This document shows positions 12,391-59,232 of a stretch of DNA of 64,000 nt, piece by piece. Made by a program: the position numbers and the translations under genes. The stretch is from Desulfitibacter sp. BRH_c19. Lineage in GTDB: Bacteria; Bacillota; DSM-16504; Desulfitibacterales; Desulfitibacteraceae. The notes under the pieces were generated by a model that did not search any database, had not been told where the DNA came from, and saw nothing but the letters and a program-made list of their open reading frames with translations. How positions within the stretch are numbered: position 1 is the stretch's first letter; each line of letters opens with the position of its first letter. Where the stretch lies: NCBI GenBank assembly GCA_001515945.1, contig LOER01000017.1, positions 1-64,000 on the forward strand, read 5' to 3'.

Positions 12391-13498
12391 TCAATTTGTC
12401 AAGCCTGACCCCTTGTGGAGATAGGCGGATATAAAAATATCCAAATCTCCATTCATAACTTTTTCCACATTACCAACCTCTACATCTGTTCTGTGGTCTT
12501 TTATAAGACTGTAAGGATGAAAAACATATGACCTTATTTGGCTACCCCATCCTATCTCTTGCTGATCTCCCCTTATTTTCAGCATTTCTTCTTCATTTTG
12601 CCTCTGCTTTAATTCAAATAATTTCGCTGTTAATATCTTCATAGACGCCATCTTATTTGAATGTTGTGATCTTTCATTCTGACACTGCACCACAATTCCA
12701 GTAGGAAGATGTGTTATCCTAACTGCTGAATCAGTTTTATTAACATGCTGCCCACCTGCTCCACCTGCTCGATAGGTATCAATTTTTAATTCAGTAGGAT
12801 CTATCTCAATTGCCTCTTGATCTGATACTTCAGGAATAACATCTACTGATGCAAAGGAAGTATGTCTTCTTCCAGAAGTATCAAAGGGAGAGATGCGTAC
12901 TAAACGATGAACTCCCTTTTCTGATTTCATATAACCATAAGCATTTTCACCTGTCACGCCAAATGTAACACTCTTAATTCCAGCTTCGTCACCTGGGAGA
13001 AAGTCTAGTATCTCTACACTAAATCCAGTCTTTTCCGCCCAACGCGTATACATCCTGTAGAGCATTTCAGCCCAATCTTGGGATTCAGTACCACCAGCCC
13101 CTGGATGAAGAGAAACAATGGCATTGTTCCTATCGAAAGGTTCATTTAATAAAACCTCTATCTGAAGACTTTCAATTTTATCTTCAACATAGGTAAGTTT
13201 ACTTTCAATTTCTTTTAATAGTGATGTGTCATCCTCTTCTTCGCAAAGCTGACACATTACTTCTATTTCTTCTAGAACTGTGTCCATCTCCTGAATTTGC
13301 TGGATTCTTTCCTTAAGCCCATTAAGCTGCTTCATAATTTCTTGAGCTTTTTGCTGATCATCCCAAAAGTCCTGCTGATTAATTTGTTTTTCTAGTTTTT
13401 GGACAGATTCCTTTTTGCTACCCAGGTCAAAGAGACACCCTCAATTCCTCAAACTCTTTTACAATCTTACTTAGTCTTGCCCGTAATTCCGTAAACAT
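12391..13498 (-). CDS. prfB: peptide chain release factor 2, with programmed +1 frameshift
   Basis: Recognises UAA and UGA stop codons and releases the peptide. The gene is in two frames: ATG at 13498 opens 23 codons ending in CTT, directly followed by TGA (13429-13427); skipping one T in CTTTGAC continues in the +1 frame from GAC (13428) to the stop at 12391, giving 368 residues. A purine-rich GAGGG stretch a few bases before the shift site provides the internal Shine-Dalgarno contact known from E. coli RF2. The tripeptide SPF (in VRISPFDTSGRR) selects UGA/UAA, and GAGGQHVNKTDSAV carries the catalytic GGQ. Low RF2 permits the shift, so the protein limits its own synthesis. Confidence 0.97.
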
Positions 13499-13542
13499 AG
13501 TTTAACCCCCAGTTACATTTTAACTTCTAGATAACACTCATA

Positions 13543-13729
13543 AGAAAATGGTATAATGAAGCGAACCATTAATTGAGTTTGTGCAATTGTTGGTTTATGG
13601 CGGTAAAAAAGGCGTTTATGCTTTGCTTGTCTGAGCGAAGCGAGTTTGCAAAGCATAGGCTTTTTTGCCAGAATAAACCTTAGAGTTGCTAGAACTCAAT
13701 TCCGGGTGAGCGAAATTATATCATTTTCT
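13543..13729. repeat. long-hairpin structured element, copy A
   Basis: About 187 bases fold into one long interrupted hairpin. Pairs from outside in: AGAAAATG/CATTTTCT, GCGAACC/GGTGAGC (GC and ACC pairing around facing GA/GA), AATTGAGTT (13571-13579)/AACTCAATT (13693-13701), GCAA/TTGC, GGTTTAT/ATAAACC, GGTAAAAAAG/CTTTTTTGCC and ATGCTTTGC (13618-13626)/GCAAAGCAT (13648-13656), with a 21-base loop containing GAGCGAAGCGAG. It sits between secA (its right end touches the secA stop) and prfB. A second copy with different but still pairing stems is at 57850-58028. It could be a structured RNA or a mobile miniature element; it has no T run. Confidence 0.85.
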
Positions 13730-16217
13730 AATTCCCGCAGCACTTCTTATGCTTTTTACCACTACCACAAGGACATGGATCATTTCTACCAACTCTTTTT
13801 TCAACTTTAACAGGCTTTTTCTCAGCTTGTTCTTCAGTATATTTATTCTCTGATACTTGCCGTGGTTGTTCAGATTTTTTGACAACATTTATTCTATAAA
13901 TATAACGTACTACGTCATCTTCAATACTGTCAACCATTGCAGTAAACATAAAGTGTCCTTCTTTGGTGTATGCAACCAGCGGATTCTGCTGCCCATATGC
14001 CCTTAATCCTATACCCTGTCTTAATTGGTCCATGGATTCTAAGTGATCCATCCATTTCTGATCAACTACTTTTAAGAGTACATACTTTTCTATGTCTTTA
14101 AATAGTTCTTCACCAACTTCTTGCTGTCTTTTGGTGAAATTCTCTAAAGCTAATTCATGAAACATTTCCCTTAGTTCATCACTTTCCAGCCTAGCAAGAT
14201 CTTCCGTTGTTAATTTATTGTTCATAAGGAATTGCTGTCCTGAATAGTCAAGTAAACTCTTTAAATCCCACTCCTCTGGATAGGGACTTCCCCCAGCATA
14301 CATATCAATTGTTTTATCCACGACACTTTCAATCATGCCCAGAATAGTCTCATGAACATTTTCTCCATTTAAAGCCTTTAACCTTTCAGAGTAAATAACC
14401 TCTCTTTGATGGTTTAGCACATCATCATATTCTAAAACATGTTTACGAATATCAAAGTTTCTGCCTTCTACTCTTTTCTGTGCATTTTCTATGGATTTTG
14501 TTATTAAAGGATGATCTATTGGAGTAGTATCATCCATTCCTAGCTTATCCATAATTCCACTCAAACTATCAGAACCAAAGAGTCTCATAAGATCATCTTC
14601 CATGGAAGCATAGAACCTACTTGAGCCAGGGTCCCCTTGACGTCCAGCTCTACCTCTTAACTGGTTATCTATCCTACGACTCTCATGTCTTTCAGTACCT
14701 ATAATATGGAGACCTCCAACACTTTGTATACCTTCACCCAATACAATATCTGTACCTCTACCAGCCATATTGGTAGCTATTGTCACAGCATTTCTCTGTC
14801 CAGCTTTCGCAATGATTTCAGCTTCCCTTTCATGGTGCTTAGCATTTAACACTTCATGGGAAATTCCCTTTTGAGAAAGCAGCTTTGATACCAATTCTGA
14901 TTTTTCAATGGAAATAGTTCCAACCAGTACAGGCTGCCCTTTTTTATTTCTTTCTGCTATTTCTTCCGCAACCGCCTCATACTTCCCCATTTCAGTCCTA
15001 TAGATTTTATCAGATTTATCCTCTCGAATCATGGGCTTATTAGTTGGAATTTCAATCACATTTAAGCTGTATATTTTAACAAATTCAGGTTCTTCAGTTA
15101 GGGCTGTACCTGTCATGCCTGCAAGCTTGTTATACATCCTGAAATAGTTCTGGAAGGTGATAGAAGCTAGGGTCTGGGATTCGTTTTCTATTTTAACACC
15201 TTCCTTTGCCTCAATGGCCTGATGCAAACCTTCGCTGTAACGTCTACCAAACATTAATCGACCAGTAAACTCATCTACAATCACCACTTGACCTTCTTTA
15301 ACCACATAGTCTCTATCTCTTTTCATAAGACCATGGGCTCTTAAACCTTGGTTTACATGATGACTTACTTCCATATTATCAGCAAGGTTTTCTATACCAA
15401 GCATCTTTTCTACTCGTTCTGTCCCCTCTTCAGTAAGGGTAACAACCCTTGCCTTTTCATCTACTATATAGTCTTCAGTTTTCTTTAAATTAGGAATAAG
15501 CTTTGCAATTGTATAATACAACTGCGTTGGCTTGTCTGTCTGGCCGGATATAATTAGAGGGGTCCTTGCCTCATCGATTAAAATACTATCAACCTCATCA
15601 ACGATCGCATAATTAAGCTCCCTTTGAACTAGTTGATCAATGCTTATTGCCATATTATCTCTAAGATAATCAAAACCAAATTCATTATTAGTCCCATAGG
15701 TAATATCAGAACCATATGCTTCTCTTCTTTGTTCTGAATTTAAACCATGAACTATTAATCCTACATTCAGTCCTAGGAAGCTATATACTTCTCCCATCCA
15801 TTCACTATCACGAGTAGCTAAATAATCATTAACTGTAACAATGTGGACGCCCTTTCCTGCTAAGGCATTAAGGTATGCCGGTAAGGTAGCTACTAATGTT
15901 TTACCTTCACCAGTTTTCATTTCTGAAATGTTACCCTGATGCAATACGATTCCACCCATTAACTGAACATCAAAATGTCTCATTTTTAGGACACGCCATG
16001 ATGCTTCTCTAACAACAGCAAAAGCTTCTGGAAGAATGGCTTCCAAACTCTCTCCATTTTCTACTCTAGTTTTAAATTCAGGTGTCTTTCCTTGAAGTTC
16101 AGAATCACTAAGTTTTTTGATGTCTGCTTCAAAACCATTTATTAAATCCACAGTTTTTTGCATTTTTTTTATTTGTTTACTATTATCATCCATTAAATTC
16201 TTAAAGAATTTCAGCAT
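13728..16217 (-). CDS. secA: preprotein translocase ATPase SecA
   Basis: Motor of the Sec export pathway; it pushes unfolded precursors through SecYEG. About 829 residues, normal length. Visible: Walker [17 protein letters not shown], the DEAD-type ATPase box [13 protein letters not shown], motif [10 protein letters not shown], the [15 protein letters not shown] arginine finger region and the C-terminal zinc motif [13 protein letters not shown] that contacts lipids and SecB-like partners. The ATG at 16217 is preferred over an upstream GTG (16226) because GAGGAG precedes it by eight bases and the GTG lies inside that site. It lies between hpf and prfB, a common order in Firmicutes. Confidence 0.98.
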
Positions 16218-16265
16218 AATATGCACTCCTCAAGGTTTACTATTCAATATTAATCATTCTAATAT

Positions 16266-20131: not shown

Positions 20132-20231
20132 GGACATTCCTCGACCCTAAGAAATAAGATTTTGATTTTTGAAGGTGTTATTCTGACTTCTGAATTCCGA
20201 CTTCTGACTTCTGAAATAGAGGTGTGTCCCC
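20132..20231. repeat. composite of two short dispersed repeats
   Basis: The outer ends GGACATTCCTCG (20132-20143) and AGGTGTGTCCCC (20220-20231) recur at 31171-31253 and 36764-36791. Between them lies a run of TTCTGACTTCTGAATTCCG-type units (about 20181-20216), the family also present at 27831-27866 and 57773-57834. It lies upstream of comFA and downstream of the 146-residue gene. Confidence 0.7.
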
Positions 20232-27799: not shown

Positions 27800-28046
27800 G
27801 GTATCCAGGAGCCAGAATAAAATCTAGTTCTTCTCCTGAATTCTGAATTCTGTATTCTGACTTCTAGGAAGTCTTCTTATCCCATATTATTATAGGCAAG
27901 TTAATGACTACAGGCAAGTTATATCTAACTTCAAGCAGTATCATGCGTATTAATGAGTTTCATATATATAGACGATGTATGACACCAAAAGTTTCAAATA
28001 GAACTCACAAAAAATAATTAGCCAGCAGAACCGTCCCCGTGGTTGG
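27800..28046. repeat. two dispersed-repeat fragments between csaB and murJ
   Basis: 27831-27866 is a run of TTCTGAATTCTGTATTCTG-type units, with a partial inverted match at 27800-27825 (AGGAGCCAGAATAAAATC). 28021-28041 contains GCAGAACCGTCCCCGTGG, a GGGGAC-family fragment. A 10-bp direct repeat AGGCAAGTTA occurs at 27893 and 27911. No gene is visible in the 27749-28047 gap. Confidence 0.6.
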
Positions 28047-56363: not shown

Positions 56364-57752
56364 TTACAAGGAAATCTCCACCAATTGTTGATTACCATCC
56401 CAATTAACCGCAGCACCAAAAGCCTGACTAACAAACCTTAAAGGCACAAGGGTACGTCCCTGGGTTAACATAGCGGGAACATCAAGATCCTGTGATGTTC
56501 CATTAATAGTTGCAAGTTTACTTCCAATCGTTAGTTCTACATTCTTGCCTCTTCCACTTAGAATTATCTTTTGCGAATCACTTTTCCAGTCAACGTTGAC
56601 CCCTAATGCTTCGCTTACAGCCCTAACTGGAATTAATACTCTTCCGTTTTCCATTATTGGGGAAACATCTGCAGCAAGCAAACGACCATTAACTATTATC
56701 TTAATTCCAGAAATACTATCTAAATCAGTAGGAACCACAAGTTCACTAGTCAAATTGACAGTAGATATGTCTTCTCTTGATTTACTATTATCCATAAACA
56801 CAAGTCTGTTACCATCTATTGATGGATAGGTTTGATGATACTGCTTATTACTAAAGACCATTTCTTTTCCTGAATTTAAATCGTATCCGTAGATATCCCA
56901 TCTTTGGCTACGAAAATCCTGCCAAGCAATTACATTTCCAGATATCGTGGGATACTCCTGGTCCTTAGCCGCACCACAGATCAAAGTGCTTTTTTCAGTC
57001 TTAAAATCATACAGGTAAATATTACTTTGGAATTCTCTATTATCCTGATAAACTAGACGCTCTCCTTCTAAAAATGGACTATACTGATCTCTTTGCCCAA
57101 CTATAACTGAAAACTCTACACCTGTATTTAAATCAGCGCCATATAAATCCCATTTTTGGTTACGAAAATCAGTCCAGACAATCTTATCACCAGAAATTGT
57201 TACTCCAACTTGCCCATCATAGTGAGCTCTTCTGTTGCCATCACTATCCAATTCTTTTCTCAAATAATTATAATTATGCTTAGCGACTTTTTTTGTTGCT
57301 TTTGTTGAAATATTATAAGCATAGATATCCCAGCTATTATCCTTGTATTCAGACCAGACTACCCATGGATAATCAACCTTTGGACTCCTTTTTTCAGAAC
57401 CAACACTCGTAAGTTTAGTAGTTTCCTCAGTAGCTATGCTGTATAAATTGATGGACTGAACATCAAAGGAATTATCAATCCAAACTACATAGTCACCATC
57501 AGTATGGGGTGCAGACTGGCTGCTACTTGTGCTGCCTATTCTCTTTGTCTTCTCAGTTGAAAAATCATACATAAAGATACCTGGTTTACCATCAGCATGG
57601 TCCTCATAAACTACAATATCTCCCGAAACAACAGGATGCTCTTGATCTCCCTGCTTATCAACTAAATATGTAGAAGCTGCAAAAGCTGGTACAGATAAGA
57701 TAAGTATAAGAATGAAAGTGAAGAATACTGTTGACAGTTTGCTTTTTAGCAT
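56364..57752 (-). CDS. secreted TolB-like beta-propeller with stalk domain
   Basis: 462 residues. Signal peptide (about 7-26), then six or so repeats of about 45 residues with WxDxRxxxWDIYxYD-like ends (VVWIDNS, IVWTDFRNQKWDLYGAD, IAWQDFRSQRWDIYGYD) forming a TolB/WD-like propeller, and a C-terminal copper amine oxidase-type stalk domain (about 345-460; VLIPVRAVSEALGVNVDW and TLVPLRFVSQAFGAAVNW). Binding function unknown. Adjacent to the S41 protease, which shares the C-terminal domain. Confidence 0.85.
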   Translation of the reverse strand: MLKSKLSTVFFTFILILILSVPAFAASTYLVDKQGDQEHPVVSGDIVVYEDHADGKPGIFMYDFSTEKTKRIGSTSSSQSAPHTDGDYVVWIDNSFDVQSINLYSIATEETTKLTSVGSEKRSPKVDYPWVVWSEYKDNSWDIYAYNISTKATKKVAKHNYNYLRKELDSDGNRRAHYDGQVGVTISGDKIVWTDFRNQKWDLYGADLNTGVEFSVIVGQRDQYSPFLEGERLVYQDNREFQSNIYLYDFKTEKSTLICGAAKDQEYPTISGNVIAWQDFRSQRWDIYGYDLNSGKEMVFSNKQYHQTYPSIDGNRLVFMDNSKSREDISTVNLTSELVVPTDLDSISGIKIIVNGRLLAADVSPIMENGRVLIPVRAVSEALGVNVDWKSDSQKIILSGRGKNVELTIGSKLATINGTSQDLDVPAMLTQGRTLVPLRFVSQAFGAAVNWDGNQQLVEISL

Positions 57753-57772
57753 ATTATTTCCCCCTTTAAATT

Positions 57773-57834
57773 TGAATACAGAAGTCTTAAAATCAGAATA
57801 CAGAAGTCAGAATTCAGAAGACAGAAGCTAAAAT
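57773..57834. repeat. GAATACAGAAGTC repeat run and direct repeat at the edge of structured element B
   Basis: A run of GAATACAGAAGTCTT, CAGAATACAGAAGTCAG and AATTCAGAAGACAGAAG units, inverted relative to those at 20181 and 27831. Its last 16 bases (57819-57834, AGACAGAAGCTAAAAT) recur with one change at 58040-58055, on the other side of element B. Confidence 0.65.
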
Positions 57835-57849
57835 CCGCACTTCTGGGAT

Positions 57850-58028
57850 AATGGCATATGGGCGAACCATAATTAAATTATTTTACAATTCTTAGCTTAT
57901 GTAGGCTAAAAAGACGTAATGATTTGCACTGTTTGAGCAAAGCGAGTTTGCAAAGCATAGGCTTTTTAGCTGGAATAAGCTTATAGAATTGTTATAATTT
58001 AATTGCTAGGTGAGCACAGCATGCCATT
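57850..58028. repeat. long-hairpin structured element, copy B
   Basis: Copy B of the element at 13543-13729. Pairs from outside in: AATGGCAT (57850-57857)/ATGCCATT (58021-58028), GCGAACC/GGTGAGC (same as A), AATTAAATTAT/ATAATTTAATT, ACAATTCT/AGAATTGT, AGCTTAT/ATAAGCT, GGCTAAAAAG/CTTTTTAGCT and ATGATTTGC/GCAAAGCAT. The loop region (GAGCAAAGCGAGTTTGCAAAGC) and the GCGAACC/GGTGAGC ends are conserved; most stem bases differ in compensated pairs. It lies between the MacB-type and propeller genes and takes up most of the 312-base gap. Confidence 0.85.
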
Positions 58029-58065
58029 TTCCTACTATAAGACAGAAGCTACAATTCCTTGCTTT

Positions 58066-59232
58066 TTATTCTCTTTGTAGGGCTTCTATAGGATTCATGG
58101 AAGCCGCCTTCATCGCTGGCCAAACTCCAAATATTACTCCTACACCCATAGCAAAACCAAATGATACAATAACCGAAGTAGCCGATACTGCTGTCTCTGG
58201 CCCAAACTTTCCAACCAATGCAGCACCACCGAAGCCTAATAATATTCCGATAACACCTCCTACTCCACTAATAATCATTGATTCAACTAAAAATTGTATT
58301 AGAATATGATGATTCATAGCCCCTATTGATTTTTTTATTCCTATTTCCCTGGTCCTTTCAGTAACTGAAACAAGCATAATATTCATAATGCCTATTCCAC
58401 CCACAAGCAGTGAAACACTAGCAATTGCACCTAACACCAGGGTCATTATCCTGTTCATTTCCTCAACCTGCTGTAACCACTCATCCTGGGATTGTAAATG
58501 AACTGAATCAGGGCCACCATATTTTTTATCGAAAATCCTCTGAAGGTGTACTTTAGCGATTTTAGCATCTTCTGCGCTATTTGCCTTCAAGGTAATACCT
58601 TGGATCCTATTAGTGGCCATTATTCTCATTGCAGAAGTAATTGGTATAAATATATTTCTATCAGGACCCATTGCGTACTCCTTACCCTTTCTCTCCATTA
58701 CACCTACTACTAAGAATTTTTGCCCTTGTATATTAATGGTTTCCCCAATTGGATTAGTATTTTTGAAAAGGTCCACTACCACCTGATCACCTACTACTGC
58801 TACCCTACGCCTATACTCAACATCTCCACCTGTTAAAAATCTTCCATCTGTAAGCTTGCTATCCGTAACTGAAAGGTAGTTCTCTGTGGTACCTGAATAC
58901 CCAAACTGATCCTCATGATTTCTCCATCTAATATTACTCCAGTTTTCCATATTAGGAACTGCATTCTTTATGGAAGGAACCCTTTCCTTTAACTCATCAA
59001 TATCATCTAAAGTAAACCTTACATTCCATCCTTGGGCATAAACCTGAATCACATTTGTTCCCATACTTTCCATATGCATCATCATTTGCTGCCTTGCTCC
59101 TGTTCCTACCGATACTAGAGTAATAACTGAAAACACACCGATAATTACACCTAGCATTGTAAGAGAGGATCTAACTTTATTTCCCATGATACCTAGCCAT
59201 GCAGACTTAAAGCTTAATATTAAACTTTTCAT
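58066..59232 (-). CDS. MacB-type ABC permease
   Basis: 388 residues of the FtsX/MacB permease class: one N-terminal helix (20-42), an extracytoplasmic domain of about 210 residues (FRFTLDDIDELKERVPSIK-like, NYLSVTDSKLTDGRFLTGGD) and three C-terminal helices (about 270-380), with MLVSVTERTREIGIKKSIGA typical. It has no fused ATPase; the ATPase gene overlaps its start (ATGA). Forms a MacAB-like exporter with the two preceding genes. Confidence 0.93.
   Translation of the reverse strand: MKSLILSFKSAWLGIMGNKVRSSLTMLGVIIGVFSVITLVSVGTGARQQMMMHMESMGTNVIQVYAQGWNVRFTLDDIDELKERVPSIKNAVPNMENWSNIRWRNHEDQFGYSGTTENYLSVTDSKLTDGRFLTGGDVEYRRRVAVVGDQVVVDLFKNTNPIGETINIQGQKFLVVGVMERKGKEYAMGPDRNIFIPITSAMRIMATNRIQGITLKANSAEDAKIAKVHLQRIFDKKYGGPDSVHLQSQDEWLQQVEEMNRIMTLVLGAIASVSLLVGGIGIMNIMLVSVTERTREIGIKKSIGAMNHHILIQFLVESMIISGVGGVIGILLGFGGAALVGKFGPETAVSATSVIVSFGFAMGVGVIFGVWPAMKAASMNPIEALQRE

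Follow-up and report, generated by a model that had tools for sequence, protein, structure and literature searches.

The two 16-mers that flank element B, a near-palindromic hairpin repeat, are probably units of an existing array of degenerate heptamers, and the element appears to have gone into or beside that array. We infer past mobility of element B from the repeat family to which it belongs and not from the 16-mers. The features concerned, all located in the window (the whole 64-kb stretch of DNA that was analyzed), are listed in Table 1. G000 denotes the window's own draft genome, and G001 and G002 are two genomes of the same genus.

Table 1. Features of the window at and around elements B and A
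Feature	Position	Strand	Remark
Element B, near-palindromic hairpin repeat	57844-58033	+	Covariance-model match
Element A, second copy in the window	13541-13730	+	Between secA and prfB
Left 16-mer, AGACAGAAGCTAAAAT	57819-57834	+	First 8 bases inside heptamer array
Right 16-mer, AGACAGAAGCTACAAT	58040-58055	+	10 bases downstream of permease stop codon, gene sense
Degenerate heptamer array (CAGAANN), five units	57792-57826	+	Overlaps left 16-mer
Intergenic spacer holding element B	57753-58065	.	ORFs, gene families
MacB/FtsX-type permease gene	58066-59232	-	Flanks B spacer
Beta-propeller/copper-amine-oxidase-N gene	56364-57752	-	Flanks B spacer
secA	13728-16226	-	Flanks element A
prfB	12391-13335	-	Flanks element A

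The 16-mer pair beside element B

The original prediction stated that a direct repeat of 16 bases brackets element B and that element A lacks a clear duplication at its flanks. Both statements were confirmed: the two 16-mers are identical at 15 of 16 positions, or at 16 of 17 when the preceding A is added, and the best flanking match of element A spans 4 bases in a restricted search. Neither 16-mer touches the palindrome: 9 bases lie between on the left and 6 on the right. Exact matches to the degenerate word AGACAGAAGCTAMAAT were confined to the two 16-mers in the 64-kb window and likewise in the entire 3.85-Mb draft genome, and near-matches with at most 2 mismatches were found at 20 places genome-wide, versus 6 for the word read backwards. 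When the left and right flanks of 17 copies of the element were compared (14 from G000 and 3 from G002), B gave the best match, with a score of 14, whereas the 272 crossed left/right flank pairs reached a maximum of 8 in the restricted search and 12 in an unrestricted one. Because this score exceeds all crossed-flank controls, the flank repeat of B is not attributable to chance.

Heptamer arrays

By kind, the 16-mers are likely intergenic heptamer direct repeats; their tail, CTAAAAT, differs from the consensus heptamer, which speaks against this reading. Arrays of at least three heptamer units occurred 13 times in 279 kb, or about once per 21 kb, compared to a mean of 0.0 in three 50-base-block shuffles. 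Eleven of these 13 arrays lie at least 200 bp away from an element, and two lie within 20 bases of one. With 40 bases added on each side, 5/13 arrays hold an internal pair of 17-mers matching at 16 of 17 positions or better; in B's own left array, the best such pair reaches only 15 of 17. Heptamers stand on both sides of the element at locus L005, as they do at B. They were also in excess in element-bearing gaps relative to other gaps under all three settings of the comparison, significantly so in one only: 4/16 versus 11/92 (P = 0.16) in the first setting, 7/16 versus 14/92 (P = 0.014) in the second, and 3/16 versus 10/92 (P = 0.30) in the third. Besides the array at B, degenerate TTCTGNN/CAGAANN arrays occur in the window at 20181-20215 and 27834-27861, and 10 more were observed in other stretches of G000.

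The available text of PMC4679880 describes intergenic direct repeats of the heptamer TAACTGA in Beggiatoaceae and cyanobacteria. Like the repeats in that text, the CAGAANN arrays are 7-base direct repeats of few units located between genes; however, their unit, CAGAANN/TTCTGNN, is different and more degenerate than the one given there.

Source of the 16-mers

Two sources had originally been proposed for the pair, namely, a target duplication made upon insertion and insertion into a pre-existing run of repeats. In a true target-site duplication, a transposase would have produced a staggered duplication of 16 to 17 bp at B, with one base changed since then. Part of the data agrees with this explanation, which we consider unlikely. 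The identity of 16/17 at B lies above all crossed flanks, and in a test of the flanks of the 17 copies, with a score cut-off of 7 and allowed offsets, four copies (B, L005, L006, and L007) had flanking direct repeats scoring at least 7, versus 7/272 crossed pairs (P = 8e-4). Since heptamers stand on both sides at L005 and B, crossed flanks are no control for these two, and without the two heptamer cases the count was 2/15 (P = 0.056). Moreover, the outer left sequences of L004, L006, L007, and A look similar by eye, which suggests that the element may reach a few bases past the palindrome; in that case, the 16-mers would abut it.

Nonetheless, flanking direct repeats scored below 7 in 13/17 copies, and the repeats that were found are inconsistent in length, with 17 bases at B, 22 at L005, 7 at L006 (TACCCTA, matching at 7/7), and 13 at L007 (matching at 11/13); their offsets differ too. 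Thus, among duplications long enough to be judged at the inexact ends of these copies (longer than very short ones such as TA), none of fixed length was found. In addition, the left 16-mer of B overlaps the heptamer array, and no single-copy empty site was seen. A TA target duplication, with ends like TAAGAAAATG and CATTTTCYTA, was considered separately and set aside; on inspection by eye, element A was compatible with it, whereas L003, L006, and L013 were not.

We prefer an existing array as the source because the left copy overlaps one, because arrays are common and contain similarly alike internal 17-mer pairs, and because duplication is not consistent among the copies. Of the two proposed sources, then, insertion into a repeat run fits better, and the duplication reading is left weak. 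The original prediction had further allowed that the 16-mer might simply be a unit of a repeat family found at many unoccupied sites. The arrays are common at such sites; the exact 16-mer word occurs at B only.

Copies of the element in G000 and other genomes

Element B represents a family of non-coding repeats of about 190 bases that are dispersed between genes. With B as the query, 15 distinct loci in G000, including B and A, matched at an E value of 2e-7 or better, and matches beyond these 15 were only short and weak; B also matches its own reverse. A covariance model added the C38 copy, which brings G000 to 16 copies, several of them partial, and detected the family in G001 and G002 with no match in G003. 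Sequence searches returned matches in 3 of 41 genomes of relatives and in 4 of 398 genomes of the phylum, the window's own genome being included in both counts. The fourth genome of the phylum search, a distant one, gave a weak match of 38 bases, 88% to the left arm (G252:C27:18086-18123, L230), which had no covariance-model hit and was set aside. A search of two large collections, one of genome contigs and one of viral contigs, for exact matches to a 26-base core pattern was negative; this is weak evidence, because the pattern is altered in both near-full copies of G001 and because the collections may lack records close to the window's genome. The plasmid search gave no match, and the family was not recognized among the best-ranked matches in the open-licence literature.

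In several copies, all that is left is the outer arms or parts of arms, which looks like deletion of the center (L150:4297-4378 in G001, L232:8191-8223 in G002, and L013). In G002, a partial second copy (L147:10184-10275) follows a full element in direct orientation after about a dozen bases.

Nine element sites of G000 were compared with G002. At five of the nine (A, B, L002, L004, and L006), G002 has no element and no recognized trace; at two (L007 and L008), the element is present; and at the other two there are remnants, a core piece at L010 and the short outer hairpin (L232:8191-8223) at L011. In G001, the element is missing from A, L002, L004, and L006 as well as from the 134 bases of the B gap that are visible; the L007 site of this genome carries one copy that has lost its center, plus another fragment. 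In both genomes, the gap at A contains TTCYGAC-like heptamers in place of the element. The B gap of G002 and the visible 134 bases of that of G001 were not alignable with the window; their best match to either 16-mer was 10/16, CAGAA occurred once in each as an isolated word, and neither sequence showed a single AGACAGAAGCTA(A/C)AAT at the element-free site. A base-exact junction was found at none of the compared sites. The pattern of presence, absence, and remnants at the nine sites indicates that the element was either gained or lost at these sites. Where G001 and G002 are without it, they may have lost it, given that there are remnants and that these two genomes are closely alike at the sites in question.

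Hairpin structure and the folded strand

For the + strand of 57819-58055, the predicted folding energy is -76.4 kcal/mol (z = -6.8); for the complement, it is -69.3 kcal/mol (z = -5.5). When 14 near-full copies were aligned (10 from G000, 3 from G002, and 1 from G001, with the L004 row short at its 3' end), the consensus structure comprised 46 pairs, pairing between the two halves extended over almost the entire element, and 95.6% of cells were paired. The outermost helix, of 8 pairs, is paired in 94.2% of cells across the 14 copies, which indicates that terminal inverted repeats are present. When the partners were slid by 1 to 3 columns, pairing fell to 48% or less. Changes on both sides were found in 14 of the 46 pairs, and the number of double-changed cells was 36, compared to a shuffled mean of 12.1, for a structure derived from the same alignment and for related copies that share changes; these values and the 95.6% pairing were reached in 0/500 shuffles. 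In these aligned sequences, the hairpin is kept by compensatory changes.

The + strand has 31 G-U cells versus 6 A-C cells or, when distinct pair types are counted, 21 versus 5 (P = 0.0025). By type, the G000 rows alone gave 20 G-U versus 5 A-C, and the four rows from G001 and G002 gave a nonsignificant 2 versus 0. When the - strand was used to derive the structure, in contrast, the counts were 2 G-U and 10 A-C. Furthermore, the + strand folds better than the - strand in 14/14 aligned copies. These data point to the + strand, which runs antisense to the genes, as the one that would be folded; strand-biased mutation may be an alternative cause of the G-U excess.

The same G-U counts and the better folding of the + strand would be left by a structured RNA or regulatory element that is read from the gene-antisense + strand and kept by selection on RNA pairing. 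Such a function is quite improbable, however: related copies share changes, so that the counts are not independent; no Rfam family reached the gathering score in the window; and promoter-like matches, one each at B and A, were no more frequent than in shuffles. A bidirectional terminator, an idea suggested by stretches of A and of T next to the central stem, was not found either in a scan limited to loops of 3 to 8. At relaxed E values, a search of 401 bases against Rfam returned five hits that lay far below the threshold and were treated as chance.

Gene context and orientation

In 15 of the 16 G000 copies, the + strand of the element is antisense to a neighboring gene (two-sided P = 5e-4). 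The exception is the C23 copy (L012), and L011, which lies between convergent genes, is antisense to the right gene only. Four rows from G002 and four from G001 have the same antisense orientation, which is partly shared by descent. Of the 14 G000 rows in which the element is on the + strand, 13 have its right end no more than 50 bases from where the adjacent gene ends. At element A, secA takes its TAG stop codon (13728-13730) from the right end of the element. At the L008 and L031 junctions, the end of the element was likewise seen to form, or to take part in, the TAG stop of the neighboring gene. As scored by eye on the gene-sense strand, a TAG stands at, or one base before, the foot of the hairpin in 12/18 copies, and a full GTAG foot is present in 3/18; the copies thus do not share the GTAG/GTGG foot of REP/REPIN sequences.

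Coding sequence in the window is strongly biased to one strand (54.4 kb versus 2.7 kb). Owing to the strong strand bias of these regions, the direction of replication is inseparable here from that of transcription. The window and the G000 stretches L135 to L144 and L151 have about 89 to 100% of their coding bases on one strand, with a GC skew of 0.14 to 0.22 in size.

Spread of the family

The dispersal of the element and its lineage-specific presence suggest a spreading non-autonomous element. A transposase acting in trans would have spread these non-autonomous copies, inserting them between genes and close to a stop codon, and part of the copies would now be inherited vertically and decaying. 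No transposase sharing the ends of the element was found. A DDE_3 transposase was not found in G000, G001, and G002, and Y1_Tnp had four matches in G000. At 8 of 12 Y1 loci, including the four of G000, the covariance model detected no element copy beside them, and blastn of B against nine Y1 loci gave short matches only.

Y1 transposases of the IS200/605, RAYT type might have moved the hairpins single-stranded at replication forks, as REP sequences are moved. Such movement would leave no duplication and would set a single orientation with respect to replication, and it would fit the lagging-strand preference of such elements given in the available text of PMC6006769. We view it as decidedly unlikely. 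One orientation is indeed seen in 15/16 copies, but gene and replication direction are inseparable in these strand-biased regions. The TAG foot of 12/18 copies, some of which supply a stop codon, recalls the GTAG REPs of the available text of PMC3733652, yet only 3/18 have the full GTAG foot. Likewise, G000 has its four Y1_Tnp matches, but there was no model match near the 8/12 Y1 loci scanned. Moreover, the hairpin measures about 190 nt, versus 21 to 65 nt for REPs in the PMC6006769 text, and the G-U excess sits on the other strand. An oversized REP-like hairpin that combines a fork-directed single orientation, insertion beside stop codons and into heptamer arrays, and an antisense strand folded under selection is very improbable.

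Among known small repeats, enterobacterial RU-1 (127 bp) and RU-2 (168 bp) are described as small mobile repeats in the available text of PMC2759123. Like bacterial MITEs and RU repeats as far as that text describes them, the element is short, dispersed, and intergenic, has inverted-repeat ends, and occurs in several copies per genome. Unlike MITEs, it was found with no parent insertion sequence sharing its ends and no consistent target duplication, it pairs along nearly its whole length, and it lies strongly in one orientation. With REP/REPIN sequences it has in common that it is an intergenic palindrome able to supply a TAG stop in a genome with Y1 transposases; on the other hand, it is several times longer than a single REP, and the full GTAG foot is found in 3/18 copies. 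In contrast to REP/REPIN systems with a RAYT, no element copy lies beside the 8 Y1 loci scanned.

The preferred reading, in which the 16-mers are units of an existing array, carries a caution: where heptamer arrays are common, alike words flanking a repeat need not be the footprint of a transposition. The near-uniform orientation of the element and its strand-specific G-U excess are testable leads. Altogether, this hairpin repeat family, detected in three genomes of a single genus, joins the small dispersed repeats known from uncultured Clostridia.
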